The position numbers and the translations under genes are program-made. 64,000 nt of DNA from Enchytraeus crypticus. Lineage: Eukaryota > Annelida > Clitellata > Enchytraeida > Enchytraeidae. The notes beneath the pieces are model-generated. The model did not search any database, was not told the origin of the DNA, and saw nothing but the letters and a program-made list of their open reading frames with translations. The stretch lies in assembly GCA_905160935.1 (NCBI GenBank), contig CAJHZI010000510.1, positions 574,001 to 638,000 of the forward strand, read 5' to 3'. Shown piece after piece: positions 7,970 through 62,865 of this stretch. Position 1 is the stretch's first letter. The number at the start of each line of letters is the position of its first letter.

Positions 7970-10098
7970 ATGGCTCAGAATATCAACGATCACTATAAAA
8001 TTCCTCCAGCGGCTCCAAAATGGCCTTCTGCGTCTCCTGGAAACTTCACGTCTCCCATCATGAATTCAAGCTTTTCCATGTCTGCTAACTCTGCTTTCTA
8101 TCCTAAGCCGTACTCATTCAGCTATCATGACAAACAAGAACACATGTATCCTAATTCCTTTCAAAGTGGACCTGCACCAGCAGTAGCGTACTATAACCAT
8201 GAACAGGCACAATCAGGTACCCCTTCAGGGGGATCCAAGCCCCTGAGAACCCACCAGAATGCCAATCTAGACGGGATGGCTATTCGGGGTCATTCTGCTA
8301 AGAGAATATCTGCTCTAGAAACCAGTTCTCTCCAGTCTGCTGGTGATAGCAGAAATAAAGAAACAAGTCAAAACCGGTTTAGCAGTCATTCAGCCGGTTT
8401 TAGACCCACTGCTGCATTGATGCCTCGAAGTTGTGACTATTGCGGCTGCGCCGTTTGCGGTTGTGGAATGGATAGTAGCTCAAAAAAGAGTGGCAACACT
8501 TTCGGAGATGAAACGCAACAATCTCAAGCTTTTCATATATCTGCCACTCCAGTTAATACATCCAACGTAACGCAGGTCGGCAACGATTATGTCAATACTT
8601 CGTACAATGCTCATTATAAAATGCCGCAGTATAGTGATAATGAAATGCTCGGTCGGTCCTATTCAGATGGTACGGCAACCACTGCACAAACGTCCGCAGA
8701 TATGCAGCATAATGTCTGGAATCAAAGAGCTAACTATACCACAGGACACCCTGCTCCATCCACCTATCACAAATGCTTTCATGCCGAGTTCGATCCTTAT
8801 CATAATCTAAGACTGCAACCTCATCTGTATCATCCCGCTACAAATCCTGTCGGCCATTTTCTGCCACCATCGAGTCAGCAAGAGATATTCCCGAGACAAA
8901 ATCAGCTGACTGCCTTGAATAAAACAGGAAATAAAACAGACAGATTTTTACCTCGAGGAGCGAGAACAGTCACGTTAGATCCAGTTGATCAAGTTGGTTG
9001 CTGTAGCGAGCAGCACGGTGTTTCGGGTGGGAAAGAATTTGACCATGATGATTTGTTAGAAAGCTTGGGTACTTGTCGATCAACGAAGAAATCATTTGTC
9101 GCTGAGACGCAGCTGATTTCTGGCAAAGCTGCGAGTAACATCAACGCCTCTGCTGGTCACGATACTTACGGGGAAAACCCTTCCGGCAAGGGAAGATTCA
9201 GCAGTGGAACTCTTACCCAACGATGTGAAGCTTCGGCAAAATCGCTGAGAGCTGCGAAAGGCTCGGCCGGCAGGCGACTGCAGAAGGCTGCTTCAAAAAA
9301 TTCGTTAGAGAGCAGAGAGGGCGATTTGAAAATCGGTGAATTTGCTAGTGAAACAGTTAAGGCATCTGGTAATGAAGATCTATCTGTCGGACCTTGTGGT
9401 AGTTCTTTGGGTATAACGAAAGCCCATGTCACATTTGAGGCAGATAAAGAGAGCGGGGTCAAGGTGCTGGAGAAGACTCAGAAATTTTCGGCATCAGTAA
9501 ATGCCCATGGCTCATTGCCAGATTTTCCTGTCACTGCGATGAAGAGACTTTCGCTCGGTTCTCAAAATCTCTCCAATCAATCTGCTCAGCGTCAGAGGGT
9601 TCTGAGAAGAGATATAGATCAAAACAGTCTGCCCATCAGTCAGCCGCTGCATCGAACCACTTCGAATGCTGAAACCAAATCTGATTCAAATGCAGCCAAT
9701 AGTTGTGGCATCACCCGTGGGAGCAGCGGATTGGTCAACTGTAAAACAGTTGCTGCCGGCAACAATGGTACGAACACCAGTAGCAGCAACAGTAGTAGAC
9801 CACCGAGCAGAAGAACTAAGACCATCTCACTCGCTGCTAGACAATCCGTTCAGTCTGCGGGTTCTGTAACAATCAGAGGGAATCAGGAAGCGCTGCGGAA
9901 GACGTTGACTAAAAGCAACAGTCTGGATGCGGCAAGCAATGTCGCCACCTCAGCTGTTAGGCGACCGCAGTCTGCGGGAAGTAAGAATAAGGGTGATGAG
10001 GTCAAGGTGAAATCTGGTCAGAAAGGTTTGTCACGTGGTAGCAGCCTGAATGTTGAAGATGAGGAGAACAAGAGTGGGGAGGTCGAAAATGCAAATTT
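7970..10098 (+). CDS. TTLL4: TTLL4-like exon 1 (coding)
   Basis: Encodes residues 1-709, Ser/Asn/Gly-rich and low in predicted structure. A compact Cys cluster CDYCGCAVCGCG lies near residue 155-166. It ends at TT|GTAAGT (phase 2); the open frame stops two bases later inside the donor. A 5' non-coding exon may exist upstream. Confidence 0.85.
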
Positions 10099-12003
10099 GT
10101 AAGTTGATTTTTTACAGCATTGGCTTCTGTTTCTTAGTTTAATTTCTCCAGTATTTATTCTACCATACTTCATACTTTACAAATGTACTCATTTATGGAA
10201 TGGAATTTTAAGTTTAGCTGAAAGATGTTTTATATTCTGCTAGAGCCGTGCTTGATAGCATTAGTTGAGGTGTAGTTGATTAGTCTTTAGTTGTTAATCT
10301 GATTGATTGATTCAGTAACTGACTGACTATTGAACTGCTGTATGATTGACTAACTGATTATGTTATTGATTGATCTTTTGATCTGTCCTTATCTATTGCT
10401 CAATTTTTTTGCTTCTATTGATTTACTAATAGATTGGTTGATTGACAAACTGACATATTGATTGATTGACTGATATGACTGAATGATTAACTGATCAAGT
10501 AATTAGTTAATTGATTGATTTATTAATGGATATATTGACTCATTGACTCATATTTGATAGATTGATTGATTGAGTAATTACTTTATTAATTTATTTACTG
10601 ATGACTGATTAATTGATTATTGATCGACTGATATTGATAGATTTATTGATTGATTGATCGATATATGAATTGATTGATTTTTAGTTTATTGATTTATTAT
10701 CTGACGACTGATTGATTTTCTTACCTATCGCATGTTCGACTGATACTAAATCTCTGATATTTCAGTGAAGAGGCGGAGTTTAGCAGCCTGTCAGAGAATG
10801 ATGATGATGATGATGATGATGACAAACCTTCAGATGATGATGATGAGCCTCAGTCTGATGATAACACAGGTAATCTGATGATAACACAGGTAATCTGATG
10901 ATAACACAGGTAATCTGATGATAACAGAGGTAATCTGATGATAACACAGGTAATCTGATGATAATGCAGGTTATCTGATGATAACACAGGTAATCTGATG
11001 ATAACACAGGTAATCTGATGATAACACAGGTAATCTGATGATAACACAGGTAATCTGATGATAACACGGGCAATCTGATGATAACACAGGTAATCTGATT
11101 GGTAATCGATTGATTGATTCACTGCTCGATTAATTGATTGCTTAATTAATTGATTAACTGATTGATTGATATATGACTGTTACATTTACAGTTGTAACTA
11201 GTTAATTAACGAATGATCGATCGATTTATTGATTAACTGCTGGATTAATTGATTGCTGAATTGATTGATTAACTGATTGATTGATACATGGCTGGTGTAT
11301 TGACAGTTAATTAACAAATGATTGGTCGATTTTCTGATTGATTAATTGATATATTAACTGCTGGATCGATTGATTGATTAACTGATTGATTACTTGATAT
11401 ATTAACTGCTCAATCAATTGAAATATTAACTGTTCGATCAATTGATATATTAACTTATTGATATGGTAGGTGTATCGACAGTAATGACTAATATTAACCG
11501 ATTGATTAATTTATATATAAACTGCTTGATTACTTGATATATTAACTGTTCGATCAATTGACATATTAACTGATTGACACGGCAGGTGTATCGACAGCTA
11601 TGACTAGCAGCACAGGCAGACCAGCCACGCTGTCAGCTGTCAGTAGGCCTAGGAAACCTCTCAGTCGTCTCTCCACCCCCACCTCCTCCCCTGCTTCTCC
11701 CCTCAGGTCAGCCTCTCAGACCCAAGTCCCTGCCCGACCAGCGCTGGGCAGGACAGCGAGCTGTAAGGGGGCCAAGGCAAAGAAAGTCGAGCCGAAGCGA
11801 CGAGCGGCCTCAGAGACCAGACGGGCTTCCACCTCATCGTCGTCATCGGGTGTTGAGGCAGGGGAATCGCCACTCTGGAACAGTCTCTTCTCCAATGTGC
11901 CTCCGACCATCAGCTTCTTCGAGCCAGGAGTTAAAGGTAAATGGAGATTATTTGAGAATTTTAGTCGCCGTCGTCGTCGTTATCATCGTCGTCGATGTCG
12001 TCG

Positions 12004-12038
<35 letters not shown>

Positions 12039-15000
12039 TTCATCATCGTCATCATCATCATCATCATCATCAGCTTCATCATCATCATCATCATCATCAG
12101 CTTCATCATCATCATCATCTTTCCTTGAATCTCAGCTTAACTAGGGTTGGGATTATAACATATTGTAGCAGTTTCTGGAGCCTAGGCGCTCACCCACCAA
12201 ATGCCTTTTCTGATGTTGTCTTGGATATCAATGCTTGGTCGCCTTTTACGACACATACACTGTACAGTTCACGGTATAGTTCAGAAGCTGCCGTGGTCTC
12301 TATGTGTTGTTGTTGTTGTGGTACAATTCAGAAGCTGCCGTGGTCTCTATGTGTTGTTGGTGTTGTGGTACAGTTCAAAAGCTGTCGTGATCTCTATGTG
12401 TTGTTGTTGTTGTGGTACAGTTCAAAAGCTGTCGTGATCTCTATGTGTTGTTGTTGTTGTGGTACAGTTCAGAAGCTGCCGTGGTCTCAGCGTAAGATGT
12501 TAAAATGGAGAATGAGTCCAATCACACCCAATGTCGTCAAGCTGTGCATCGCGAGGTCAGGATTCAGGACAACAGATAGTAAGATCCTATGCTGTTGTTA
12601 ACTATTTATGAAATAATAGCAGTTATAAATGTTAGATGAATTTAGCAATGGCATATAAAGTTGGTAAAAAAGCTAAGGTTAACGTCAGTTTCCTCACTCG
12701 AAAGTGATGTCAGTGACGGGCGATCCCAGGATTTGAACCCGCACATACTGATCCATGGTTCTGTGTATTATCGACGTCTGTAAGATATTCGTTTATTAAC
12801 GTATCACTTGATGTTTTTATCCAGAGATGACTCATTGGTTGGGGACCTGGGGCCGGCATATGAAGCCTGCAGCCTACAAGTACATCAGAGAATATCAAAA
12901 GGTTGGTAACGTACTGAAACCTAATGTGTGTAACATTTTAATTCCATTTACGTTATGTAGTAACATAACAGTAAATCTAAATGGTTTGTTGTAGAGCTCA
13001 TCGTCACACACTAACAAACTATATAAGGAAATTTTTGGACCGTTTATTTTAATCTTGTGAAATCAATAACATACGATAAATATGCTACTGGTATATGCTA
13101 CTGGTATATGCTACTGGTATATGCTACTGGTATATGCTACTGGTATATGCTACTGGTATATGCTACTGGTATATGCTACTGGTATATGCTACATTTATAT
13201 GATACTGGTATATGACACTGGTGTATGCTACAGGTATATGCTACTGATATATGTTACTGGTATATGCTACTGGTATATGCTACATGTATATGATACTGGT
13301 ATATGACACTGGTGTATGCTACAGGTATATGCTACTGATATATGTTACTGGTATATGCTACTGGTATATGCTACATGTATATGATACTGGTATATGACAC
13401 TGGTGTATGCTACAGGTATATGCTACTGATATATGCTACTGATATATGCTACTGGTATATGCTACTGGTGCTTTATGTTTCTAACTTTTTCAGTAAGATA
13501 TTCGACCGCCGATCAGTATGTGCGGGGTTCAAATCCTGGGCTCTCCCGTCACTGACATCGCTTTCGAGTGAGGAAACTGACAATGACATTAGCTTTACCA
13601 GCTTTTAACAGTATAACTGTGCCATTTTTCAGATAAACCATTTTCCAGGAACTTTCCAGTTAGGGAGGAAGGATCGACTGTGGAGAAATCTTTCCAAGAT
13701 GGCGGCGTATCATTCTAAGAAGGAATTCAACTTCTTCCCAATGACCTACGTGTTACCAGCAGACCTTCAGTCTCTCAAAGTAGCCTGGGACGAGGGGCCT
13801 GCCAAACAACAGTGGATCATTAAACCGGTGTCTAGTCTATAAATCAATCATATCCTTAGTTCTAAATCAATCAGTCAATCAGTCAGTCTTATCTAAGTTT
13901 TATAGTTTATATATGATGACGACGACGATGATGCTGATGATGATGATGATGATAATGATAATGATGATGGCGACGACAATGACGATGACGATAAAGACGA
14001 CGATGATGCTGATGATGATGATGATGATAATGATAATGATGATGGCGACGACAATGACGATGACGATAAAGACGACGATGATGCTGATGATGATGATGAT
14101 GATAATGATAATGATGATGGCGACGACAATGACGATGACGATAAAGACGACGATGATGCTGATGATGATGATGATGATAATGATAATGATGATGATAATG
14201 ATAATGGTGATAACGACGACGATGATTGACTTGAAATAATTTAATTATAATTAGCCCGCAGCAGCGCGTGGTATAGGAGTGCGAGTGATATCTAAGTGGG
14301 CTGATGTGCCTAAGAAGCGACCAATCGTAGTACAGCGCTACATCTCACGACCTCTGCTCATCAATGGTAACAAGTTTGACCTGAGGATCTATGTCTACGT
14401 GACTAGCTACGACCCCCTCAGAGTCTACATCTACGAGAAAGGCCTGGCTAGATTCGCTTCCGTCAAGTTAGTCCTCTCTCTCTCTCTCTCTCTCTGTTTC
14501 TCTGTGTCTTTCTCCTCCATTTCTCTCTCTCTCTTTCTCTCTCGATCTTTCTCTCTCTATGAGTGAGTCTTTAAATCACCTAACCTACCTAATCTCGGCC
14601 TGCCCCTGCCTCTTTTTCCTTCAATTCCACCTTCTATGACCTCTTTTAATAGACCTTCTCCCCTTAGAATATGGCCTATCCAACTCTTCTTCCTGTTTCT
14701 TAATACGTTTATCAACTGTCTATCTGTGCCAACTCTCTCTAGGACTTACTTTATATTAATATTTATTAAGCATTAGCATGCATTTAATGTTAGGTACTCG
14801 TACTCATGCAGGAATCTAAACAACAAGTTCATGCACTTATTGTTAGGTACTCATGCACTTATTGTTAGGTACTCATGCACTTATTGTTAGGTACTCATGC
14901 ACTTATTGTTAGGTACTCATGCACTTATTGTTAGGTACTCATACACTTATTGTTAGGTGCTCATGCACTTATTGTTAGGTACTCATGCACTTATTGTTAT

Positions 15001-17285
15001 GTACTCATGCACTTATTGTTAGGTACTCATGCACTTATTGTTAGGTGCTCATACACTTATTGTTAGGTACTCATGCACTTATTGTTAGGTACTCATGCAC
15101 TTATTGTTAGGTACTCATGCACTTATTGTTAGGTGCTCATACACTTATTGTTAGGTACTCATGCACTTATTGTTAGGTACTCATGCACTTATTGTTAGGT
15201 ACTCGCACTCATGCAGGAATCTAAACAACAAATTCATGCACCTGACGAACTACAGCGTCAACAAGGAGAACACTGGCTACATTCCTAATGGCGAGGAACA
15301 TGAGGCCTGTGGGCACAAGTGGTAGGTGCACCTGTGTTATAGGGCAATTTGAAGTTATTTATTTATTTACTCTTAAAACATTTAATAATGAACAAATTTG
15401 AACAAATAAGTAGTTCTACAGAGAAACAATATCCTTACAATACGGTAAATAAACAGTCTGTATCAATCTTTTGGTTGGAGCCAGTGGCGAAGTCGGTAAG
15501 ACACTCGACCGCGGATCAGTATGTGCGGGGTTCAAATCCTGGGCTCGCCCGTCACTGACATCGCTTTCGATTGAGGAAACGGACGTTATCCTTAGATTTT
15601 ACCTTTTAAATAAATTTAATTGACATTCGAGAGTCCCAGTCCGCTCCCACATCCATCATCAGTCACCCCTCCCTCTTGATCTTGCTGTTTTTCTTAAGAA
15701 TTAACCTTGCACTTCCTCTGTTCACTTCCTTCCTCTCTCCACTTGTTCTGAGCATGAAGCACCTTCTCATCTATTAACAAATACTGTATTATATATGCGT
15801 CTTTATTTCACCAAAAATATGGTAGTATAAGTACAATAAGTACACAATATAAAGTACACTATACACAGTGAAATCATGTTCAGCGAAACAGAGCAAAGAG
15901 ATAAAGTGTTCGAAACGAAAAGAACATGACAGGTATATGGTGGGAAGAGATGTGTTTTCAACCTACAACGGAAAGTGGAAGTAGCAGTTTATATTATCTA
16001 CTTCTATAATCTGCACCTATGTGTTGTGTTAACTAATGCTATAATCTGTCTCAATGTGTTATGTTAACTAATATAGCCTGTCTCAATGTGTTATGTTAAC
16101 GTTGCGAGGTCTCTGCAGACACTGTGGGATCATTTGAAGGAGGAAGGCGTCAACACAGCTCTGATATGGGACAGCATTAGAGACATCGTCATCAAAACTA
16201 TCGTCAGGCAAGATTTTACTAACGTTTAGTATCGCTAATCTATGCAAGTGCTCGGTATTTGCATGGACGACAGCGGTATTCCATTGTTTGCAGTTCATTT
16301 ATCGTCCAAGGACGTAATTTTAGTACTTTGATCTGAGTCTACTATGTTACGTTAATGGCTCTTTGAAATGGCTTCCTTTTGTGAAACTTTATGATTATTA
16401 AAGAACACTATTAAGTAAACCGCTGCCCAGGAGCTATCTTTTCTCTCAATCTCTCTCTCTCTCTCTTTCTCGTGATTTGCCAAGCAGCAAGTGCAAGGTA
16501 CATATTTCTACTCACATGCTGCCTTTTACGCTCCATAAAGAGAACACCATCAATTAACGAGCATCAATTAACACACATTAATTAACATAATCGATTAATC
16601 CCTACACAAATGGCTATGCCTTATCCACACCTTAATGAAGCCTATGGATCCACGCAGCTTGGACAATCTCACACACTGACACCTGTAATATGAAATGGTT
16701 AAATACTCTCTATTATTAGCTCAGTTAATTGCTCTATTATTAGCTCAGTTAACTGCTCTCTATTAATAGCTCAGTTAAATGCTCTCTACTAATTGCTCAG
16801 TTAACTGCTCTCTACTAATTGCTCAGTTAACTGCTCTCTACTAATTGCTCAGTTAACTGCTCTCTACTAATACCTCAGTTAACTTCTCTCTATTAATAGC
16901 TCAGTTAGCTGCTCTCTACTAATAGCTCTCTTAAATGCTATTTAATAGCTCATTTAAAATGCTCTCTATTAATAGCTCAGTGAACTGCTCTCTACTAATA
17001 GCTCTGTTAACTGCTTTCTATTAATAGCTCAGTGAACTGCTCTCTCTTAATAGCTCAGTTAACTGCTCTCTATTAATAGCTCAGTTAAATGCTCTCTATT
17101 AACAGCTCTGAGTCGATCATCAACACGTACATGACGGCTCACGTAAGGAGACGTTACTGCGTGCATGAGCTCTTTGGATTCGATATCATGCTGGATGAGA
17201 AATACAAAGCTTGGCTAATAGAGGTCAACATATCTCCTAGGTATCCAGTCTTATTTATATAGATCTCTCTCTCTCTCTATTTATA

Positions 17286-17358
<73 letters not shown>

Positions 17359-20300
17359 CTTTCTATTTTCGTTTACCATCTCTCCCTGTCTCTCTCTTTA
17401 TCCTCCTATCTCTCTCTCTCTCTCTTCTCACCCGAAGTTATCTAGGTTATCCACTGATCGTGGGGGATTTATCATTTTTATCATGAAAGTAGTAGGATTT
17501 CACTATTTATTTTGCTGCTTAAATAGTTTATGTTTGAGTATTTACACGCACAGGTTGAATGGCCCAATGGATAGAGCTCTTGCCTGAGAATCATGAGGTG
17601 ATCAGTTCAAATCTCAACCCGACTGTCTCTGACAGTACCCCTTGTGATACTGAAACAGACGTTAAACTTGACTTTATGGCTTTATATGGACGTCTCTGAT
17701 ATCATCCTGTACGTCCCTGACATAATCCTTGTGTGAGGAGACGGCCGCTAAACCTTTATTGTTATTATTATTTTTTTTTTTTTTTTTACCCCGGTGTAAA
17801 GAACCTGGGGTTTGATAAAAACGATTCGAGCAATACGTGCTGAATCGCCGCCCGGCTACTCGAGGTCATCAATCGGCTTAAAAGAATTGTTGAAGCAGAC
17901 TGCATTAAATCTTTGCAAAGTCATGGAAAGCCTTTGCCAAAGAAAAGATGTCTCTCGCTTATCGCCGGTTTGCTCTGCAATAAGTCTGCCTATGCCATTA
18001 ATAAAGTCAACTCCTTCGGGATTCATCGGGCCCATGGTTTCAATAGCCACCGGAACAACTTCATATCCTAAGGACAGATCACGGTATTTATCCAACTTCC
18101 TAGAGGCGGCATGAACAGCAATACACTTTCAATATCCTGAAGGCCAAGCACCCACCCGCAGCTAGTAGCAGTATAATGGCACCCCTTCCGGACTCAATGG
18201 AGACTCCGCCCATTCAAGTCTCAGAGCAGGATGTTGTCAAAGCTGTACGTAGCTTTCCAGCAGGCTCAGCAGGTGGTCCTGATGGCCTTCGCCCTCAGCA
18301 TCTTCTGGAGCTTGTGACTTGTAGAGAGTCGGCTGGGACATTTTTGACCGCTTTGACTTCTTTCGTGAATCTCCTTCTTAGAGGTGTTTGCCCCCCTGAG
18401 GTCCAACCGGTGCTGTTTGGTGGTAAACTCTTCGCACTCAATAAGAAATCTGGCGGCATTCGCCCCATTGCAGTGGGTTACACTTGGCGTCGTTTAGCCG
18501 CTAAATGCGCAAATCGCTATGCAGTGTCTGCTCTCAGCGAATACTTGAGCCCAATTCAACTTGGAGCTGGTATTCCAGGTGGCTGTGAGGCAGCTGTTCA
18601 CGCTACTCGCCGTTTCGCTGAGTCAATGCCAGCTGATCACTTCGTGGTAAAGCTAGACTTCTGTAATGCTTTTAATTGCTTGAGTAGATCACGAATGCTC
18701 AGCGAAATACATCACAGGATACCAGAGCTGTATAGTTTCTGCCATCTAGCTTACTCAAGCCCTTCGTGGTTGAAGTTCGGAGACTGGTGCATTGAGTCAC
18801 AGGAAGGAGTCCAACAAGGGGATCCCTTAGGGCCCATGCTGTTTTGCTTGACTATTCACCCTCTCCTTACTTCTCTCTCTAGCGATCTCACGGTGGGATA
18901 CCTTGATGACATTACTCTAGGTGGTTGCGAGTCGTCGATTGCAAATGATGTACGGACTATCATCGACAGAGGCCAAGAATTTGGGCTTCAGTTGAATCGT
19001 ACCAAGTGCGAAGTCATATCATCAGTTTGCAAATCTCCGGGCAACTCAGTTTTGTCATCATTTGTGCCAATGTGCCTATCCCATAGTTCTCTACTCGGCG
19101 CGCCACTCTCTGGAGAAGAAGCTACTACCACCGCTTTATCCAGTCGCCTTGAAGACCTCAAACGTACAGCATCGCGCTTGAAGTCGCTAGCCGCTCATGA
19201 TGCTTTAACAATCCTTCGCTTTTCTTTAAGTGCACCTAAACTTATGCACGTTCTGCGCTCTAGTCCGAGCTTCTCTAATCCGCGGCTTTAGACTACGACG
19301 AGGCTCTTAGGCAATGCTTGTGCGCCGTTATCAACGCAGATTTGTCTGATTTGCAGTGGCAGCAAGCCAGTCTACCGGTGAGCATGGGTGGTCTTGGAAT
19401 TCGTCTTGTTTCCCATATCGCGCCTTCAGCCTTTTTGGCATCAGCGATGGGAACGAGGCAGTTGCAAGACGCCATCCTTCATAAGTGCTCCCTTTCTGCC
19501 GATAGTTCCATTGACGTTGCGTTGTCAGTTTGGTCCAAAAGCCTCACCTCCAGTGCTCCACCTTCTACCTCAGTCAGTAGCCAGAAATCATGGGACCGTC
19601 CTATAGTGGATCGGATTTATAACAGTCTGTTAGAATCCCAGTCCAATGCAGTAGACAGAGCACGACTCCTAGCTGTATCAACTAAAAGAAGCAGCGACTG
19701 GCTTCACGCTCTCCCTGTTGCTTCTTGTGGGCTATTTTTAGACAATGAGGCGATTCGAGTAGCTGTTAGTTTCCGTTTAGGGGCGAAAACTTGCGAGCCT
19801 CACATGTGCCCCTGCGGTCATGAAGTCGACGCTTTAGGTCTCCACGGTCTCTCCTGCAAACGAAGCTCAGGTAGAATGTCTCGCCATCACAATTTAAATG
19901 ACATAATATGGCGAGCACTTTCGAGAGCAGGCATCCCTTCCTCTAAGGAACCAAGTGGGTTGTCCAGATCAGACGGCAAGCGTCCGGACGGCTTGACTTT
20001 CATGCCCTGGTGCAACGGTAAATGTGCCGTATGGGACGTCACGGTCATTGACACTATGGCAAACTCCTACCTGAATACGACTTCAGTCACAGCCGGTGGT
20101 GCTGCTGCTTATTATTATTATTATTATTATTTTTTTTTTTTTTACCCCGGTGTAAAGAACCGGGGTAAAAATATAACTGGGGTTATTATTATTATTGTTA
20201 TTATTATTATTTATTTGATGTTCAATGTCTGCAGTCTACACTCTAACTCTAACCTAGACTTGAGCATAAAGGGTTTGCTGGTCAGAGACGTCCTCAACAT

Positions 20301-23300
20301 GGCGGGCTATATGATCCCAACCAGTGAGGATATAAATGCCGTATCCCAGTCTCATCCCATTGACTATAGGTCTGTAAAATAGTTAAATCCCTAATCCCAT
20401 AGACTATAGGTATGTATAATAGTTAAATCCCTCATCCCATAGACTATAGGTATGTATAATAGTTAAATCCCTCGTCCCATAGACTATAGGTATGTATAAT
20501 AGTTAAATCCCTCATCCCATAGACTATAGGTATGTATAATAGTTAAATCCCTCATCCCATAGACTATAGGTATGTATAATAGTTAAATCCCTCATCCCAT
20601 AGACTATAGGTATGTATAATAGTTAAATCCCTCATCCCATAGACTATAGGTATGTATAATAGTTAAATCCCTCATCCCATAGACTATAGGTATGTATAAT
20701 AGTTAAATCCCTCATCCCATAGACTATAGGTATGTATAATAGTTAAATCCCTCATCCCATAGACTATAGGTATGTATAATAGTTAAATCCCTCATCCCAT
20801 AGACTATAGGTATGTATAATAGTTAAATCCCTCATCCCATAGACTATAGGTATGTATAATAGTTAAATCCCTCATCCCATAGACTATAGGTATGTATAAT
20901 AGTTAAATCCCTCATCCCATAGACTATAGGTATGTATAATAGTTAAATCCCTCATCCCATAGACTATAGGTATTTATAATAGTTAAATCCCTCATCCCAT
21001 AGACTATAGGTATGTATAATAGTTAAATCCCTCATCCCATAGACTATAGGTATGTATAATAGTTAAATCCCTCGTCCCATAGACTATAGGTATGTATAAT
21101 AGTTAAATCCCTCATCCCATAGACTATAGGTATGTATAATAGTTAAATCCCTCATCCCATGGACTATAGGTATGTATAATAGTTAAATCCCTCATCCCAT
21201 AGATCGTATATCTATACTACAGGTAAGTTCATCTCATAGAAAATAAGTCTGTGTGGTGAACTGCATTTCAATATACGTGTATAAGTTCATTTTATTCTAT
21301 CTGATATCAGCAGAATTCAATTGTCGTTCTACGGCATATATCAATAAGTTGAGAAATTTGTATAATGTGAACAGATTTTAATTTAATGACTGTCTTGTAT
21401 ATCGATGATTTGATTTATTTGGTATTTGCCACTTGACTGCGAGTCTGAATGCTCGCTGATTAGCTGAATGATTGACTTACTGATTGCTTGATTATTTGAT
21501 TGACTGAATGCGTGCCCAATGAACTGATTGATAGATTTGACTAATTAATTAATTGATAAATAAATAATTTAATTATTGATCTGACTAACTAATTGGTTGA
21601 TTGATTGATTGATTGATTGATTGATCTGACCAATTGATTGGTTGGTTGATTGACTGACTGATTTATTAATTGATTGATAAATTTATTGATTGATTAATTG
21701 GTTCGATTGATTGATTGATTCGATTGATTTGATTGATTGATTATCAGTGAGGAGCCGAGCTGTGCGGATTGTATGGACAGAAGGCTGTGGACAGTAACGA
21801 AGAGTTCTGATGAGAAAGCTAAGCATATCTACTACTGTCAGAGACATACAGACACTGTATGATACACATACAAACACACATACAAACACACGTACACATA
21901 GCACATCTACTACTGTCAGAGACACACAGACGCTGTATGATATACGCACAAACACATAGCACATCTACTACTGTCAGAGACACACAGACACTGTTTGACA
22001 CGAATACAAACACACATACAAACACACAATGCGTACATATATGTAAACGTCAATGTACGATTCTACTAGAGGCATACTGATGCTGTAAGCTGTGTATACA
22101 GACACATACCCATATGAGTGCGCATATGCTTGCACATAAAATATGTTTTGGAGTAATTCGGTAATAAGTGACTTCAGTAATCATGACTGATTGATGCTGA
22201 TAAATCATGACTGATTGATGCTGATGAATCATGACTGATTGATGCTGATGAATCATGACTGATTGATGCTGATGAATCATGACTGATTGATGCTGATAAA
22301 TAATGACTGATTGCTGCTGATAAATCATGACTGATTGATGCTGATGAATCATGACTGATTGATGCAGATGAATCATGACTGATTGATGCTGATGAATCAT
22401 GACTGATTGATGCTTATGAGTAATGGCTGATTGATGCAGATGAATCATGACTGACTGATGCTGATAAATAATGACTGATTGATTGTCAGGGAATTATGCC
22501 CTGATATTTTGTATAGTAAGATTACTTATATTATTTATATATATGGAAAGTTATCTAATATTATTTTGATTGATTTTAGTATTTTTATTATTAGGGAGTT
22601 CAGAAGTTAGTTAAGCTTATGACGTCACGAGAGTGGGCGGAGCTAGAGGGTTTTTTGTTTGGTTTTAGAGAGGAGGAAGGTGAAGGTCATGAGAGGAGGT
22701 GGTAGATGAGATTCCACGTGTTAGTTTGAATAGAGGATTAGAAGGATCGAAAGAATTAGACTGTTATAGAACAGTGTTGGATAATCCTTAGGTGATATCC
22801 AAGAGTTGATCAATAGTTGATCAAAGGAAAGAATTCCCGAAATACGATTAAAGTAAACGCAGGTATTGAGGAATAATCAGTTAGCATTTCCATAGTGGAA
22901 TTTATGTTTTGACGTGTTAATTAGATAGAGCTAGGTATGGTATTTTCGTTGATCTTATATCAAGTAAAGTCGTTTTAGTGTTTCGAGTTAAACGTGTATA
23001 TGAATATTTCAGATTCATCATAAGGACTGTCAATTTAAACTTAGGCCTACTTGACTTTTTTTGTTGATGTTATACATTTGGATATTTCTTTATTTTCTTG
23101 ATCTGTATTAAATTCGCGTTTTAGTTTACATTAAAATAATTAAATATTAAATATGGTAGTCTGTCAGTTAATCTGTAGAAGGTCGGGGTCTTTAGATTAG
23201 TGTAGTTTAATTACGAGATCAGATGCAAAATCTATTTAAGTAGGACATTAAAGGATTTAGCGTCTGTTTCAGGTGAGGTTAGCCTTGGTGGGGTAGAACA

Positions 23301-42844: not shown

Positions 42845-44654
42845 TAGTTAACCTCGGGTTCAGGTTCGACGTTGAAGAACATGATGTTCGTGAAGAGGTA
42901 GCCGAACAGGAGTGTAAAACAACAAGCTAGGCGCTGACACCTAGTGAATGGACTGAGTGCTGGGCGACCATACACAGAAAACCACAAGTGTGAATCCTTC
43001 AAACCTCTGCAATCAATCAATCAATTATTCATTTCATCAGCAAGCATTCAGTCAAAAAGTAATGCATTCTATCCTAAGGCAACAAATCGATTAATCAAAC
43101 AATAACTCATTTCATCAGCAGACAGTCAAACTGCAATTTATTCTATAAGTCTAAATAAATGCAATAGTGTTTTAATTAACAATACATAGCCTACACGAAC
43201 AAACAATTGGTTTATTCAATACTTAAATTACTAATAAAATCACCCAATACATTAATTAATTAAATAAGTAATAATTAATACTTAAATGCAGTCAATAAAG
43301 CGGGTGTCAGTTTAAACAGTAATCGATCAATGAATCATTTGATGACGATGAAATGATTTAGAATTAGATGATTTCTCTTTTTAGTCATTAAATCAAGGAC
43401 TTTGCCTATTGAACTGTTAATATGCATCAGCCTGACTTGTTGATACGATACTTAATTGAAATCATTGTAAATTATTAAAAATAAATATTGATTTTTGTCT
43501 AGTTAGTTTTACTTATTTCATCTCTATCAATCAATCGATACCCACGTTAGAGTATTGATGATGACGAGGTTTTTAACGCTCATTACGTCCTGTGTAGATG
43601 ATATATAGAACGTCTCGTCGATGGTGTGTTGAGGGGCCTCTAGGTCCATCCAGCGCTTACATATGAAGTAGTACTTACAGCGAGCCTGTATGTCCAATAC
43701 CACCACTCTGCTCACGAACCTAGCAAATGCAATACGATACATTGCGATACAATACAATACAATACAATACGACCACCCTGCTGATGAACCAAGCAAATAC
43801 AATACAATACGATACAATACAATACAATATCACCACCCTGCTGACGAATCTAGCAACAAAGGTGATACAATACAATACAATACAATATAATACAATACAA
43901 TGCAATACGCTATGATACAATACAATACAATAACCAATACGATACAATAAGATACAATACAATACAATAAAATACAATGCAATACAGTACAGTACAATAG
44001 AATGCGATACAATCAATACAATGCGATACAATTAATACAATACAATACAGTACAATACAATACCACGACCCTGCTGATGATGATGAACCTAGCAAATACA
44101 ATACGATATAATACAATTCAACAAACCTGCTGATGAACCTAAGGAACACAATACGATAGGGCGATACGATCATTATTTATATGGTATTTAGCTACTAGGC
44201 CTGTCTCCTCCTGTCGAACGTCAAACAATCTCATAAATCAATCAAATTTTTGACGACTTTATAGTTACGACGATTAATAGTAAATTATTGATTGATTGAT
44301 TTATTGATCGATTTCTAACCATGAAGGATGTTTTCCGAGGTTGTAATGCCACAGCCTGATAGAGAAGAGCTTGCCCAATGGCACGACCGTTCTGATAATG
44401 AACAGATCTGCATTGTCCTTATCCAGTGTGGACACATCATAGGACACCAGTCGATGTGATCCACTGCTTCCAACCTCTCCTGCATCAATCAATCAATCAA
44501 TCAATCAATAAAATTAATAAGGATACAATAGATTCATAAAACTGATATCTAAAGATGGACAGAATAGATTGACAAAATAGGTAGATACAATAAATAGGTA
44601 AACTAGATAGATAAAATAGAGAGATAAATATATATATATATATACACTGTATAT

Positions 44655-44892: not shown

Positions 44893-47800
44893 ATATATTA
44901 TAGTGAATAATCAACTATGATGGACAGAATAGATAGATAAAATAGATAGATAAAATAGATAGATAAAATAGATAGATAAAACAGATATATAAAATAGATA
45001 GATAAAATAGATAGATAAAATAGATAGATAAAACAGATATATAAAATACATAGATAAAATACTTAGATAAAATAGATAGATAAAATAGATAAAATAGGTA
45101 GATAAAATAGATAGAGATAATAAATAGATAAAATGGAGACACAAAATAGATATCTAAAAATGAACAGAATAGATAGATAAAATAAGTAGATACAATAAAT
45201 AGGTAAAAAAGATAGATAACATTGACGTCCCTGAAATTGTTTTACGGCGAGGAACCGGATGTTAAATTCTTATTGATTGATTGTAATAGATTAGTTATTT
45301 TTCAATTTGTAAAATAGAGGGGTTGTCAACTAGATAGGTTACTTTTGACCTCTTTGACGGCCATGTTTGTGTATGTCACTGTATATTTTGAATGTATCAA
45401 AATAAGCATAGTTCTCTCTCTCTCTCTCCTCTCTCTCCGATTGATTGATTAATAGAAGAGATAGACAAGCAGAAACCGTTAAGACGTATGTAGACGTCAG
45501 TGGAGGAGCCAGAGAAGGGTCTGGAGCCTGTGTAGACAGTGACCACGTAGATGTAGCGAGCGTTCACGCTGTTGTCCCCCAGGTCTACGGGCATCGCCTG
45601 GGCCAGCAACAACAACACTCAATAGACCGAGATGTAATACTGTCCGAGATAAGTCACTGTAGTGTTGAATAAAACCCTATATTTCTTTACCTCTATCTCA
45701 TTTTATCTCTCTTTCTCTATCTTCTTTTTTCTCTATCTCTCTCTTTCTCACTTCTCTCTCTCTCTGTCTCGCACTCACACACTCCCACTCTTCAAAACAC
45801 TTCGGAATGGCAAGCAGACACACAACAATACAAACCAATACGGACAGATATAAGCAGACACACACGCAGCCGGTCTCTAAGATCAGCAAGTCTGGTGATC
45901 AGAACAATACAATCAGATACAAACAGATACAGAAAGATACAAGCAGACATACACGCAGCCGGTCTCTAAGATCAGCACGCCTGATGATCAGAACAATACA
46001 ATCAGAGACGGACAGATACAAGCAAACATACATCAGAACAATACAAACAGATACAAACAGATAAAAGCAAACATACACCAGAACAATACAAACAGATACA
46101 TACAGATACAAGCAGACACACAACAAAACAAACAGATACAGACAGATATATGCAGACATACACGCAGCCCGTCTCTCAGATCAATGCAAACAGATACAGA
46201 AAGATACAAGCAGACATATACGCAGCCTATCTCTAAGATCAGCTCGTCTGATGATCAGAACCATACAAACAGATCCAAACAGATACAAACAGATACAAGC
46301 AGACATACATAAGAACAATACAAACAGGTACAGACAGATACAGACAGATACAAGCACACATACACGCAGCCTATCTCTCAGATCAGCACGTCTGACGATC
46401 AGCAGAAGGATGATGAAGAGGATGACGAGCACGCAGACCATTGCCACGCCCACTGGGTTGTCTGCTATGTGCAGGAAGCCTAGGAGGGCGTTGCCAATGT
46501 TCAGCTTGTTGGGTGGCACAAAGAAGGAACTGGCAGCGAAGTGAGACATGTGTTTACATTGACAGTGGACTACTGCCGGGAGCTCGTTCAGCTTGGCTGG
46601 GTTTAACTGAAAGAAGTAGAAACAAATAAAGCTGGTCAAGCAAAGGTTAACGTCAGTTTCCTCACTGGAAAGCGATGTCAGTGACGGGCGAGCCAGGATT
46701 TAAACCCCGCACATACTGATCCGCGGTCTAGTATCTTACTGACGTCGCCACTGGCTCCAGCCAGTGAATGAAAGTACACATTGGTCAACCCTTACAAACT
46801 GATAGCCTTACCCGAATATCGAGCCACGATTTCAGGAACAGAGAACTATGGCTCTATAATAATCATGTCAGCGATGATACTGAAAATAATGATAATAATA
46901 GTGATAGCAAAATAAAATTAGTCATATCCATATCGATGATGATGATGATAGTAGTGTTGATGCTAGACATGTAGTAGACTGATAAGATAGTACACTGATC
47001 AGAAGATAGACTGATAAGATAGTAGACTGATCAGAAGATAGACTGATAAGATAGTAGACTGATCAGAAGATAGACTGATAAGATAGTAGACTGATCAGAA
47101 GATAGACTGATAAGATAGTAGACTGATCAGAAGATAGACTGATAAGATAGTAGACTGATCAGAAGATAGACTGGTAAGATAGTAGACTGATCAGAAGATA
47201 GACTGATAAGATAGTAGACTGATCAGAAGATAGACTGATAAGATAGTAGCCTGATAAGATAATATAATAAGAAGATAATAGACTGATAAGCTAGTAGAGA
47301 CTGATAAGCTGGTAGACTGATAAGATAGTAGACTGATAGGACACTAGACTGATAAGATAGCAGACTGATAAGATGAGAGACTGATAAGCTAGTAGACTGA
47401 GAGATAGTAGACGGATAAGCTAGTAGACTAATAAGCTAGTAGACTGATAATATACTAGACTGATAAGATGAGAGACTGATAAGATAGCAGACTGATGAGA
47501 GACTGATAAGCTAGTAGACTGATAAGCTAGTAGACTGATAAGCTAGTAGACTGATAAGCTAGTAGACTGATAAGCTAGTAGACTGATAAGCTAGTAGACT
47601 GATAAGCTAGTAGACTGATAAGCTAGTAGACTGATAAGCTAGTAGACTGATAAGCTAGTAGACTGATAAGCTAGTAGACTGATAAGCTGGTAGACTGATA
47701 AGATAGTAGACTGATAAGATAGCAGACTGATAAGCAAGTATACTGATAAGCTAGTATACTCATAAGTTAGTACACTGATAAGCTAGTACACTAATAAGCT

Positions 47801-48852
47801 AGTAATCTAATAAGCTGGTAGACTGATAAGCTAGTAGACTGATAGTAGACTGCTAAGCTAGTAGAGACTGATAAGCCGGTAGAACCCTGCAGTATCTAGT
47901 GCTCCAGTCGTAGATGGAGGGGTCCCAGTAGCTGCAGGACATCTGATAGAGAAGGATCTTCACCTCGGCGCTAACGTTCCGCCTGTGGTAGAACCTCAGT
48001 GCCACCTGACGAGAGGGGTACTCACCAGGGTCTATAGTCAACTCCTTCTCATCCGTCGAGTTCTCTCCAACCCTGCTCAATCAATCAATCAATCAGTCAA
48101 TCAATAAATCAATAAATCAAGCAATTAATTAATTAACCAAGCAAGCAAACAATCAAGCAATCAATCAATCCATCAATCAATCAAATAATTAATTAATTAA
48201 TCAGTCAATCAATTAATCAATTGCTCTCTCACCTATTTAATCATTTACTCACTCAATCACTCACTAAATCAGTCAATCAATCAAACTATCAATCTATCAA
48301 CCTCTAAGGCAATCAATTAGTCCATTATTCAATTATTTTGTGAATCAGTAATTTTTTTTAATATTCAATCAATTTATAAATGAATCAAATTATTAAATCA
48401 AATGACAATAATTGAGTATCATACAGGTTGTACGTAGACTAGTAGAGGACACAGACGAGTGCGTTGTTCAGCCGGTAAGTAGGGTCAATACCACGCACTG
48501 GAAGATGATGATGATTTTTAACGACACACATATCTTATTCTGATACATATATTCTCTGATATCAACTATAATTTGATTACCCACATTCTGTAACAGCAAA
48601 AACAAATCTAATACCCATATTCCACGATATCAAAACGAATTCTTGATATCGAATTAGAAATTACTCATACCCAGATTAACATACGTAAAGTATTGATAGT
48701 AATTTAAATTTCAAGCAGGCGAGCTGGCAGGTTTTAGTTAGAACGATTACAAGAATTGTCTGCACATTACGTTGCATAGTGTTTACCCGAGGCGAGTGTT
48801 CTATCATCGTCAGTTCTAAGTTAATTATTAGGTTTTATACATACATATACAC

Positions 48853-48941: not shown

Positions 48942-51900
48942 CATATATATATATCACCGTCAGTTCTAAGTTAACGTATCAGAAGGACCTGAAAATCTTA
49001 GTCCAGATGTTTCGATGATCCGAGGAATTGAGGAAACATTGCAGATCCTCCTTCACCAGGGATACAATCAGCTTTCCTTCCTCTTCCGGAGCATTCTGTA
49101 CGGATGCCGGACTCCTAGACTTGCGGGACAGACCTCCGGGTTCCTGGTGAAGACCTCCGAGTCCCTGGTTACCATGCAGCGCTCCACCCGTCCTATACAG
49201 GTTAGCCCTGCCGGTGATAACTTCCTCATCAACCCTCGTGATGGTTTCTGTGTTATCTCCGGTAAGTCTGGCCTTAACCGCCTCCTCGGTGCCTCTATCG
49301 CTCGACCTGGCCTTGACCTTCTCCCTGATGTTTCCATCGCGCAGCTTGACCTTGACCTTATCCTTGCTGTTTATATCACTCAGCTTGACCTTGACCTTAT
49401 CAGCGTCTCCATCGTTCACCCTGACCTTGACCTCATTATCGTCTCCATCGTTCACCCTGACCTTGACCTCATTAGCGTCTCCATCGTTCAGCCTGACCTT
49501 GATCAACATCTTCGTGTAGACGTTCTCTGAGCCCACATCGACGGGGTAGAGCGCTGATTGGTGGGGCTGAAGCACCGCCGTCACCTCCTGACCTGTCTGC
49601 GTGGTGTTGGTCGCCGAGCGGAATGAGAACTGGATCATCTGACTGTCCGAGAGGTCGTTTGAACCCACGCTCTTAGAGCCGAGGCTGAGCTTTATATCGA
49701 CGCTGCCAGTGTTGATTCTGTCGGCGCTCTTAGCGAACCAGAACGGGTTCTTCTCGAATGAGACAATCTTGTAAAGATAAAAACGACAAAAAAGATAATG
49801 TTAACGTCAGTTTCCTTACTCGAAAGAGATGTCGGTGACGGGCGAGCCCAGGATTTGAACCGCGTGCATACTGATCAGCGTTCGTGTATCCTATCGACTT
49901 CGCCACTGGCCCCAGCCGTCATATATGCAGTTATTTATTGATTTCGTTACATATTAAATAATTAAATAAATCACCACTGACGTGGGATGCGATGATTAAG
50001 AAGATCATGAAAACTAGGGGATTGGCTGATGATGTGGTGTTGGACAAATAGGATTGAAGGTCTATTTATTCGTATCTCGAATGATTATGATATAAGTTAA
50101 TAAATTAATAAACTAATGCTTTATTCCCTTTCCCTTTACCGAAATCACTACTAACTAATTCAATACAAATTTCTACGAATAATGTATTTTTAGTATAATG
50201 CACGTAGTTAGCACAAACCTCTACTTTGGTTTCCTTCTGACCATCCAATATTGGAAAGTTTCCTTCTATTCCTCCAACACCCGTCCAACCAATCTGCTTG
50301 ACGTTAAGGTCTTTTGGCTGTACCGTCTGAAAGTATGGAAAAGAGAGAGAAATATGGTTGTAAGATCCAAACACAGCATATACCATACAAAATGAAAACA
50401 GGCAACGGTAATAGTCAAATGGAATAGACAGCAAAATAATATAAAATAAAATTTGATAAACAGAAATATAACATCAATCAAAGAGAGATGCGAGACAAGC
50501 ATACAAGCAGACGTACCATTAGAGTGACATGAGGAGTAAGAGACAAGCATACAAGCAGACGTACCATTAGAGTGACAGAACGAGTGAGAGACAAGCATAC
50601 AAGTAGACGTACCATTAGAGTGACATGAGGAGTGAGAGACAAGCATACAAGCAGACGTACCATTAGAGTGACTTCCAGGCCTCCATCAGTCTCTATCTTA
50701 GTGGGCTGATTGCTGAGGAAGGTGTTCTTTATGAGACTCCCGGTCATCTTGTGTATAGCTTTCATTAGAATGGCTGACAGCTTAGGATCAGTCTGAAAAT
50801 CAATCAATCAGCCAATGAATCAACCGATCAATCAATCATTCATTCAGTCGGTTAGTCAATCAATCAATCAGTCTGCCAATCATTAACCAATCAAAAAAGC
50901 AGTCAGTCAATCAATCAACCCATCAGTCAAACAATCAATCAATCGATCACCCAATCAAGATAGTTTTTAGTTCCTGCAGAATCTAACTTATACTAATTAA
51001 AACACTTATATCATAATCATATGTGATATCAGTTTACAACCTCCTAAAATAAATACGCTTGTGTACATAAAAATATAATTTTAAACTATTGGACATTAAA
51101 TTTTATTGCAGTATTATAATGTTTATTTATTTGATATTATAATAATATCACTCACGGGACTTTGCGAATCTCTCGCAGATGACATCAGATTCTGCGCAGC
51201 GCCTATCATTGCTCTAAAATCAATCAATCTATAGATTAATTACTTAAACAAAAAGTAACAAGTTAAGCAACTCAAAAACAAATAGTAATTGGTTAAGCAC
51301 CTCCCGCAGATCACTGTAGAACATACTCTAAATCAATGTAAAACAGTTAATATAAGAGTCAGAAAATGAGAACTAAAAAGAAAGGAAATTAGAATAAAGA
51401 TATCCAGAGTAAGTTTGACTGAAAAGACTGCTTTTATTTACCAATTGATCGATGATGATGACGATGATTATTATTATTATTATTATTATTAACAACGAAC
51501 ATTTTTAAAATACGAAGGCTCTCAAAGTTTAGAATTACTAATACACATTGAAAATGAATCAGCTTAAAACTGCCCGTGTTTCAAAGAGACTACTTGAAAG
51601 AGACACGTGTAGAGGGAGAGAGAGAGTAATAATAAAATATTTGATTGATTGACAGAGGCCGAGATTAGGAATGTTAGATGATTTAAAGATCCACTCATAC
51701 GTTGGTATGAAGAGGAAAGCGGAAGGCAGAGAAGAGTAGAGGCGTTATATACCATGGACTTGCCAGTAGACAGTTCACTAAGAGAGAGAGAGAGAGAGAT
51801 ATATTGAGGTTGAGAGAGACAGAAAAATACGAAGTCTCTCACACCTTTATAATTACTAATACACTTTGAAAATGAACCAACTTAAAACTGCACGTGTTTG

Positions 51901-52848
51901 AAAGAGAAGACGTGATAGAGACAAAAAAAGAGAGAGAGAGAGAGAATAATACTAATAAAATGTTTGACTGATTGACACATCTCTCCACACACGTGTATCC
52001 ATCTCTTTTGATGGTGTCGCCCACCACATCGCTGTACACATTGATGTTAACCTCGAGACTGTCCACGAGATTATTGACGTTCAGAAGTTGGAGGATCTGT
52101 CTCGGGTCTATCTGATCTTTGTACGAGGTGAGAGCCTTGAGGGCGACCATCGTCTGCTGGAACACGGCCGGGTTACCCGAGGCTACACCCTCGTCCACCC
52201 CTGAGATCTGCGCTAGCTGCTGCGCCACCGCGGCTCTGTACTGAGGCCACAATCAGTAGTAAAAGATGGTAACGCTAAGGTTAACGTTAGTTTCCTCACT
52301 CGAAACCGATGTCAGTGACGGGAGAGCCCAGGATTTGAACCCGCACCTACTGATCCGCGGTCGAATACCTTACCGACTTCACCACTGGCTCCAGCCACTT
52401 CGCCACTGGCGCCAGCCGTAGTAGTAATAATATTAGTAATAGTAATAAAATTAATGATAGTAATAAACTCAATAATAGTAGTAAAATTAATAATAGCAAT
52501 AAAATTAATATAGTAATAAAATTGATAATAGTAATAAAATAAATAATAGTAATAAAATTAATAATAGTATTAAAATCAATAATAGCATTAAAATCAATAA
52601 TAGTAATAAAATAAATAACTGTAATAAAATCAATCTAGTAGTAAATATGATAATACAGAGAGTAAGAGAGACAAAGGGATAGAAAGAGAGACATAGAGAG
52701 AGAGAGAGAGGGAGAGAGAGTAAAAGAGGCATATAGATGAAGAGACACAGAGTAAGAGAGAGGAGATTTGTACTGAAGAAGGAGTGAGACAATGAGAGAT
52801 AGATATAAAATGAGATATTGAGAAGAGGTAAGACGGAGATCATCAAAC

Positions 52849-55800: not shown

Positions 55801-58006
55801 GTTGATCTTAATCGTGTAGGACAGCTTAGTGGTAATCGCCGACGTTGGTCCTCCTTTCAAATTAATAATTAGTAATTAATAATTAGCAATTAATTAAACT
55901 AATTAATTACTAATTTAATACCGCCATTAATATGTCAATATTAGATAAGTAAATAATTAATTTAATTAAGTAATTACTAATCAAACATTGACATATCAAT
56001 GTCAGAATTAATCACACCGCCACTGGCTGGCCAGTGGCGGTGTCGCCAAGTTATTCAACTGCGTATCAGTATGTGCAGGGTTCAAATCCTGGGCTGGCCA
56101 GTCACTGACATCGCTTTCGAGTGAGGAAACTGACGTTAACATTAGTTTTACCATTAGCTTTTCTTATAAAGAAGGCCTAGCTCTAGACACGTGGACTGGT
56201 TGCTGCTCTGAGCTCAGTGATCGGTAGTTGATGATCTAGTTAAGATCTCTGTCTCCGATAAGCTGTTGAGAGAGATGAAAATGACGCTAAACTTGGCTCA
56301 GCCTTTAGTATGACAGCAGGTGTATGCAGTGGTTAAAGTGGGAATTGAGATCTAGGGGAACGGCCAGAATTTTTCGGACACTCTATAATATATTTACAGG
56401 TCTCCAAGTATCTAGTATGGGCCCCAAGCAGCGGAACTCACCTTAGGAAAAACGAGAGCTAGGGGAACACAATTCCACTGCGTTCCACTACTCTAACCAC
56501 TGGCTGTATGTTACTAATCAGTAGTTTGCGCAATTGTTGATGTTTAAACACTTGATTATCTCACTAGTAACTACGGCCATGAGAGAGCCGACTTACCTTC
56601 CACTGTTATGTCGTATTTGTCGTTCAACTTGGCGTCCTTGAACGTGAGTGGCGGCAGCTCAAGAACAGGCAGGTTCGGCGCGTTGATGGTGACCGAAGGC
56701 ACTATGAACCAGGCGAAGTGCCAGGTGGCGCAGTTAGCGCATACCACTCTCAGCGCGGCGCGGCGCGAGGGATCGAACATGACGGCGCAATTGAGCAGAC
56801 AACGAAGCTCGAACGTGGCATCAGGGTCTTTAGAAACGTGCAGAACCTACGTGGAGGTTAAACGGTGAGGACAGGAGAAAACGGCGTGAAATTATAATAT
56901 TTATGAAATTAATGAACTTTGAGATAGTCAGATCAAGTCATAGAGTATCGGAGCTCGTAAAATGGTCAGTCAATCATTCAGTCGATCATTCAAATAATTA
57001 GTCAATCATTCAATCAGTCAGTCATTCAAATAATCAATCAATTAATCAATCAATAAATCAACTACTTATTCAATCAAGTACATCTATAGAGCAACGTTCT
57101 ATGTAGAATTGCACATTAGCGCTAGTAAAACGAAAGAAGTGAGAAAAAACTGTAGGGAAAATCAAACAATAAACAATTTATTTAATCAATCAGTAATCAA
57201 TCAGTCAATCCATCAATCAATTAAAGTGGCGAGAGGTGAAATTAGGGCAAAATCAAACAATCAACAAATTATTTAATAAATCAGTAAATCAATCAGTCAA
57301 TTCATCAAACAACTAAAATCAAACAACCAACAAATCATTTAATCAATCAGTAAATAAATCAGTCAATCCATCAATCAATTACAGAAGCGAGAGGGACCTG
57401 TAGGACAAATCAAACCATCAACAAATCCTATAATCACTCAGTAAATCAATCAATCAGTCAATCAATCAATTAAGGATGAGAAGGGAACCTGTAGGGCAAA
57501 TCTAACAATAAACAAAACCTTTAATCAATCAGTAAATCAATCAATCCATCAATCAATCAATCAAGGATTAGAGAGGAACCTGTATGGCAGTATCACTGGT
57601 GCGACCTACAGCAGAGTACTCTACCATGAACGTGAAGATAGCAGGAAGAGTAGAATACTCCAGGTCAGTGGTGAGGAAACCAAGCTTACCATGTTGCTTC
57701 GGAATCCTATCCGGCTTAAAGCAGTTGCTTAGGGGATCTGAAATCAATCAAACGTCATCATCATCATCTTCCACTGAATCCCAATTTCACTAAGGTAGAG
57801 ATGCGAATAGATCTTCTCCTCTCCTCTCTGTTGCGCACACAATATCATCAGTCAATTTCGTATTTTTCATGTCCTTTATATAGTCAACGTGGGTTACTGT
57901 CCACGTCAGTCGTGGGCTACCAAAATTAATTTGTAAATTTGCATTTGTATTTTTGAGGTAACCAACTAGATGGCGCTAGTCGCTGTTTTGGTAGCCTCTA
58001 TTTCTG

Positions 58007-58047
<41 letters not shown>

Positions 58048-62865: not shown

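Follow-up and report, generated by a model that had tools for sequence, protein, structure and literature searches.

Do exon–intron borders attract tandem duplication, and how does splicing select among tandem copies of its own signals? A single genome makes both questions testable. The case is a 64,000-nucleotide stretch of genomic DNA (the window), part of contig C417 of an assembly of 524 Mb in 802 contigs, in which two genes on opposite strands carry minisatellites that contain or adjoin their splice sites. These arrays are "mirages", a kind already known from amphioxus; the name was reportedly coined by Canestro et al. in 2002. What is new here is the host lineage, the density of the arrays and a measured test against chance, the kind itself being known.

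Two genes with arrays at their splice junctions

The first gene encodes a TTLL4-like tubulin glutamylase (7970–24833, plus strand; TTL domain, E = 2e-96) and was modelled with 14 exons and an open 3′ end, while the second encodes a polycystin-1-like protein with REJ, GPS, PLAT and channel domains by Pfam (32245–62865, minus strand) and was modelled with 29 exons and an open 5′ end. Both exon chains, read by hand, keep a single open frame across their 14 and 29 exons, respectively, and the two models give 41 introns and 82 junctions in total. A protein-to-genome spliced aligner, with the Lineus TTLL4 protein as query, reproduced 21 of the 22 tested TTLL4 boundaries exactly; at the sole discordant boundary it placed the acceptor at 15199 and the hand reading at 15217, 18 nt apart and in frame. 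This comparison covered the TTLL4 boundaries, and those of the polycystin rest on hand reading. The TTLL4 intron 16208–17105 (plus strand) is of the GC-AG type, with the donor CAG|GCAAGA, and here the aligner agrees. Ab initio gene finding, considered for a bigger sample, was dropped with ~42–57% of its junctions in the window false.

In the TTLL4-like gene (all arrays on the plus strand), three arrays include a donor together with coding sequence: 12 copies of a 20-nt unit at 10854–11099 (donor 10869 and 16 nt of exon), 21 copies of a 40-nt unit, 98% identical, at 20351–21203 (donor 20369 and 19 nt of exon) and a 58-nt array at 21815–22014 (donor 21856 and ~40 nt of exon). Acceptors are included in a 116-nt unit present twice at 11377–11606 (acceptor 11598, 9 nt of exon) and in 4.6 copies of a 47-nt unit at 12273–12488 (acceptor 12468, 21 nt of exon), while the 16 copies of a 26-nt unit at 16698–17108, each unit a whole 3′ splice site, reach acceptor 17106 of the GC-AG intron. 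Three further arrays stop just short of an acceptor. The 17 copies of a 22-nt unit at 14829–15204 end 12 nt before acceptor 15217, with a further copy of the junction at the far end (~14811); 2.9 copies of a 32–35-nt unit at 16004–16100 end 8 nt before acceptor 16109, and seven copies of a 24-nt unit at 23310–23485 end 2 nt before acceptor 23488. The last array shares an identical 24-nt unit with one at 22179–22483 (plus strand), 826 nt away in the same intron, and the two look as if one array had been split by an insertion.

The polycystin gene (all arrays on the minus strand) shows the same anatomy. Donor arrays comprise a 41-nt array at 36156–36521 (donor 36508 and 14 nt of exon), two copies of a 58-nt unit at 42085–42207 (donor 42198), a 45–89-nt array at 45828–46364 that reaches donor 46364 and whose inner copies carry ~36 nt of exon, 3.8 copies of a 48-nt unit at 50492–50672 (donor 50661 and 12 nt of exon) and a 91-nt array at 57158–57589 (donor 57580 and ~10 nt of exon). 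On the acceptor side there are a 66-nt duplication in two copies at 37647–37776 (acceptor 37675 and 26–29 nt of exon), 2.9 copies of a 56-nt unit at 40913–41073 that reach acceptor 40919, and a ~60-nt array at 43692–44160 (acceptor 43719 and 27–29 nt of exon). When four inner copies each were aligned at acceptor 43719 and donor 46364, the exon and intron parts were seen to repeat jointly; repeat units that join exon with the adjoining intron sequence are thus a feature of the window, and they also occur in the EEF1A, GAPDH and enolase genes discussed below. Tandem repeats also occur within coding sequence, in exon 12 of the polycystin (49297–49502, minus strand), with units of 36 and 39 nt, both multiples of three.

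A preliminary description of the window, made from its letters, had listed seven donor-type arrays (10854, 20351, 36180, 42108, 45868, 50490 and 57000) and six acceptor-type arrays (12280, 14805, 16690, 23311, 37655 and 43720). All seven donor-type arrays are real, the one placed at 57000 carrying a shifted coordinate for 57158–57589, as are all six acceptor-type arrays, each of which contains or touches the splice site. Four arrays had been said only to abut a junction. This is accurate for the one listed at 37362 (9.7 copies of a 19-nt unit at 37352–37535, 6 nt from donor 37542) and loosely so for those at 42337 (21-nt unit, 42335–42553, 25 nt from acceptor 42309) and 46978 (55 copies of a 16-nt unit at 46972–47844, which lie 41 nt from donor 47886 by Tandem Repeats Finder (TRF) and 0–13 nt by similarity, 0–41 nt overall); that at 61985 begins 77 nt from donor 62566 and is not near a junction. 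Four junction arrays had been overlooked, at donor 21856, at acceptors 11598 and 40919 and near 16109.

In most tests, arrays lie at exon borders more often than expected

For the main count, overlapping TRF rows were merged, the smallest good period was taken and each array was counted once. Arrays with a smallest good period below 9 or with less than 30% intron overlap were dropped, and an array was called near if it lay at most 12 nt from a junction or crossed it. With a smallest TRF period of 5, the array at 43719 falls outside this count, as does the duplication at 37675, which TRF did not report. By this measure 16 of 40 merged arrays are near a junction, nine on the donor and seven on the acceptor side, as compared to 5.4–5.5 expected under random placement in the same introns (0 of 20,000 shuffles reached 16). 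Eight merged arrays cross a junction by at least 4 nt (3.3–3.4 expected, P = 0.01). The excess is carried mainly by the TTLL4-like gene, in which 9 of 15 arrays are near (1.8 expected); the polycystin gene shows a weak bias (7 of 25 near, 3.6 expected, P = 0.048). If the expectation is instead taken from the array density in the other noncoding DNA of the window, after removal of arrays with more than 70% of their length in exons and of a coding stretch at 1–1335, only 2.7–3.0 near arrays should be seen (P = 2e-8 to 1e-7). Arrays defined by similarity behave alike, with 13 of 42 crossing a junction (4.8 expected, P = 1e-4), and among the most homogeneous arrays (at least 93%) 7 of 11 are near (1.8 expected).

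The event-wise outcome varies with the way in which arrays are merged. A refined event count gave P values of 0.001 to 0.12 depending on settings. Two cruder counts, both of which relied on inflated periods, gave no significant excess: 6 of 69 unmerged TRF rows cross a junction by at least 4 nt (6.6 expected), and the first similarity-based event count found 11–16 events (9.6–12.0 expected). In the unmerged rows the excess of array edges within 15 nt of a junction is marginal (15 against 10 expected, P = 0.05). Base by base, there is no excess over positions inside introns. Sequence in 30-nt intervals centred on the junction is locally duplicated at 12 of 82 junctions, as compared to 27% in intron interiors and 3% in exon interiors, and duplicated DNA straddles 17 of 82 junctions but 34 of 82 positions shifted 40 nt intronward and 1 of 77 shifted exonward. 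Repeat coverage climbs gradually on the way from the exon across the junction into the intron, and the junctions are not peaks. The proposal that repeats overlap true junctions more than shifted ones fails in this base-wise form for shifts into introns. We hold, however, that this control is weak for the question of an edge bias, because many arrays run over hundreds of bases and reach only a short way into exons. Thus, the claim that placement is better than random stands in most event-wise tests, but neither in the two cruder event tests nor base-wise; in the event-wise tests of the two gene sets, arrays are ~2.4–5 times as frequent at exon edges as elsewhere in noncoding DNA, the size of the excess depending on the null.

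Junction arrays recur in further genes, mostly in introns that predate them

The pattern had been suggested to be a genome-wide habit. We examined nine further genes picked by homology and blind to arrays, namely RABGGTB, three EEF1A, two enolase and three GAPDH genes, which were located with human reference proteins as queries. RABGGTB lies on the same contig as the window, in the flanking sequence, and the EEF1A, enolase and GAPDH copies are on eight other contigs (used below to name them). All 47 of 47 introns were kept; the enolase and some of the GAPDH models are without their N-terminal part, and a RABGGTB array overlapping the point at which the last aligned exon ends, where no intron is modelled, was left uncounted. 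The habit does extend beyond the two window genes, as 11 of 30 arrays in these genes are near junctions, as compared to 4.6 expected by placement (P = 0.001) and 3.1–3.4 by the noncoding density of the window (P = 3e-4 to 8e-4). Six arrays cross a junction, which is only just significant (2.8 expected, P = 0.045). The near arrays belong to five of the nine genes (three each in EEF1A C730, enolase C475 and RABGGTB, one each in enolase C628 and GAPDH C625); none was found in EEF1A C402 and C637 or in GAPDH C380 and C225. Coding sequence is repeated along with the acceptor in EEF1A C730 (~40 nt) and along with the donor in GAPDH C625 (22 nt).

The paralogues allow the age of the introns to be assessed. 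Intron positions 48.0, 164.0, 257.1 and 343.0 are common to the three EEF1A copies and 108.0 to two, while only C730 has junction arrays, which lie at 108.0, 164.0 and 257.1. Likewise, all eight intron positions found in the enolases are common to both copies, with arrays at 203.1, 270.0, 316.2 and 392.0 in C475 and at 316.2 in C628. An array-free paralogue therefore has an intron at six of the eight array-bearing positions (EEF1A 108.0, 164.0 and 257.1; enolase 203.1, 270.0 and 392.0), and because the intron is found there without an array, these six positions predate their arrays. Enolase 316.2, with arrays in both copies, is uninformative on order. For the GAPDH intron at 78.2, which carries an array, neither of the other two copies showed a counterpart, although the C380 model says little on this point, as it begins only at residue 73. 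Paralogous introns at the same positions but without arrays are 0.5–1.3 kb long.

The earlier suggestion that such duplications are a route to intron gain and growth is accordingly borne out in one half only: duplication at junctions lengthens introns, but paralogues keep the same introns without arrays. Consistent with this, the flanks of donor and acceptor of one intron, the likeness of which would be a signature of gain, are no more alike than flanks taken across introns (41 window introns, P = 0.25–0.56). The process seen is the lengthening of introns, not their gain.

A proposed mechanism and its rivals

We consider it somewhat probable that the arrays arise by duplication at the borders of existing introns and that the cause is a mutational preference. 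A segment of ~20–90 nt that spans or touches an exon–intron border would be duplicated in tandem inside a pre-existing intron and would grow into an array with the anatomy described above. That the intron is older than the array was found at six of eight positions in the paralogue set and presumably holds for the window as well. The outermost copy would stay joined to the exon, probably kept there by coding selection, while the inner copies would turn into intron, drift and lengthen it. The preference itself would be one for tandem duplication at exon borders, donors and acceptors alike, with growth then proceeding on whichever side tolerates it. Polymerase slippage in general is a possible cause.

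The main rival needs no preference. Here, duplication would be frequent and uniform, introns would once have been short and selection would have purged arrays from exons, leaving the remainder at the edges. Assuming 150 free nt per intron at seeding raises the expectation to 14.9 near arrays, and the 16 seen are then no longer in excess; counting only the non-repetitive intron sequence present today, 10.9 are expected (P = 0.026). The smooth climb of base-wise coverage described above also fits uniform duplication, as do the similar array densities of intron interiors (0.82 per kb) and DNA outside genes (0.97 per kb; 0.56 and 0.98 per kb, respectively, with a stricter score) and the presence of arrays inside one coding exon, with periods divisible by three. 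Against it, the most homogeneous and presumably young arrays are already biased to the borders (7 of 11), array-free paralogous introns at the same positions are 0.5–1.3 kb long rather than short, and the density-based expectation, which is independent of intron length, is 2.7–3.0 near arrays as compared to 16. On balance we regard uniform duplication as unlikely, though it deserves to be taken seriously.

Selective retention is improbable. On this account arrays would arise everywhere but those at edges would be lost less often, as their deletion would remove a splice site. By reasoning, such retention follows from selection acting on junctions; its protection, however, would be one-sided and could thus enrich edge arrays at most ~twofold, and the young arrays are biased already. 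Very unlikely, in turn, is the idea that the arrays mark introns born when an AG|GT site within an exon was duplicated in tandem, as has been proposed for amphioxus globins, in passages of PMC3087553, and for Drosophila. The GAPDH intron at 78.2 would suit it, but the six array-bearing positions shared with array-free paralogues and the dissimilar donor and acceptor flanks do not. An assembly artefact, in which the assembler inflated or invented the arrays, could be suspected from the 98–100% identity of some of them, but with diverged units in many arrays and the same pattern on several contigs it has hardly any probability, even if assembled copy numbers may be wrong.

Two further candidate causes found no support. 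The preliminary description had named reverse-transcribed splicing intermediates, yet the repeat units are unspliced exon|intron sequence. Among the 41 exon–exon 24-mers of the window genes the best match was 20/24 (mean 17.3), as compared to 18 (mean 16.3) for shuffled sequences, a small excess that may arise because each half matches the exon from which it was taken; as spliced copies were not found, reverse transcription of intermediates gains no support. A step in base composition was likewise not supported as the cause of the edge bias, since non-junction arrays lie at GC steps no larger than those of random noncoding sites (P = 0.07–0.50) and the steps at junctions with arrays are, if anything, smaller than at junctions without (P = 0.06–0.10).

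Spare splice sites within the arrays

Duplication at borders multiplies splice signals. In 15 arrays scored with generic splice matrices, 71 inner splice-site copies are kept and 26 of these outscore the authentic site (one tie, at printed precision); 19 of the 26 belong to the array at 20351–21203, in which 19 of 20 inner donor copies are stronger than the authentic donor. Use of the 71 inner sites is predicted to lead to a stop codon in 62 cases, a frameshift in five and an in-frame change in four. Because most would bring a stop codon, the spare sites are probably mostly unused, and splicing would mostly have to pick the edge copy, as otherwise much message from both genes would be lost. 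The 48-nt donor array after exon 10 of the polycystin (50492–50672, minus strand) is without an in-frame stop, and its inner donors, if used, would add 16 residues per copy to the protein. In amphioxus, according to passages of PMC3087553 on the Adh3 and globin genes, the copies seem not to disturb splicing.

Relation to amphioxus mirages and the lineage of the host

Amphioxus mirages have been described in Branchiostoma for Adh3, globin genes, TnC and PGBD5, and passages of the same two papers report on their splicing, length polymorphism and somatic instability (PMC3087553, PMC3902484). As described there, units span exon–intron borders at 5′ and 3′ splice sites, measure 10–160 bp, much as here, and often keep AG/GT in the inner copies. 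The present arrays differ in coming from another lineage, by a one-gene tree, and in number: where the passages on amphioxus present single cases, gene by gene and with no test against chance, mirages here touch ~1 in 5–6 junctions of the two window genes and recur in EEF1A, enolase, GAPDH and RABGGTB, that is, in five of nine others, and both the excess over chance and, through paralogues, the age of the introns were examined.

Comparable repeats are known outside amphioxus. In human segmental duplications, ~30-bp minisatellites at exon–intron borders alter gene structure, and the sections of PMC2812944 concerned count 27 intron modifications from recent duplicates and read them as new introns, whereas the introns here are older. 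The potato RdRp case (PMC4974935) likewise involves tandem duplication of splice signals; here, by contrast, the introns already existed at six of the eight positions tested by paralogues, and there is no duplicated proto-splice signature. A literature search, in which subscription papers were mostly outside the scope, turned up no recognised report of mirages in another animal, the human boundary repeats aside.

The lineage was approached through the TTLL4 domain, which is 54–60% identical to the 31 sequences compared and 56% identical to that of Branchiostoma floridae; for comparison, the whole Branchiostoma TTLL4 protein is 56–59% identical to hemichordate, nemertean, cnidarian and fish proteins. 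In a 32-row tree the window gene grouped with molluscs, annelids and nemerteans (support 95/85), and its pairing with Branchiostoma was rejected (AU p = 0.0165). By this sequence comparison the host is likely a spiralian, a placement graded no higher because the tree is of one gene on a long branch, and it is more likely still that the host is not a cephalochordate. The polycystin, for which there are six distant homologues, fits this tree only in being far from its best match, from Branchiostoma (31% identity).

With hosts this far apart, it is conceivable, though we put it forward with some doubt, that exon–intron borders are birth hot spots of tandem duplication from amphioxus to spiralians, at which working splice sites multiply and introns lengthen from their edges, and where the spliceosome would have to pick the edge copy reliably from among as many as twenty competitors of equal or greater strength. 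For gene prediction and assembly, such borders call for caution.

Other repeats of the window

A second repeat is linked to junctions. Of the 41 window introns, 11 have sense-strand (TTGA)n octamers within their final 60 nt, as compared to 4.8 expected from random intervals (P = 2e-4), and one has antisense octamers there; in the nine other genes the counts are 12 of 47 introns (2.6 expected) and none, respectively. Examples at intron 3′ ends are 21592–21742 (plus strand), 48077–48300 and 50798–50958 (both minus strand). The branch-point motif is yUnAy, and the (TTGA)n unit reads as a repetition of such motifs. Judged from the letters, (TTGA)n may act as tandem branch points, and of the two repeat patterns linked to junctions it may be the more functional.

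ARAGORN (tRNA) and Rfam scans of the window reported nothing. By eye, a repeated tRNA-like element, a SINE in appearance, has a conserved end block and many copies in the window, for example at 15475–15590 (plus strand) and at 52300–52410, 49830–49910 and 40410–40490 (minus strand). A polycystin intron holds, again by eye, a fragment of a reverse-transcriptase element with matching flanks (~38680–39110, minus strand). Finally, a TTLL4 intron contains a reverse-transcriptase element in two overlapping frames (18104–20100, plus strand), the best database match of which is 77% identical.
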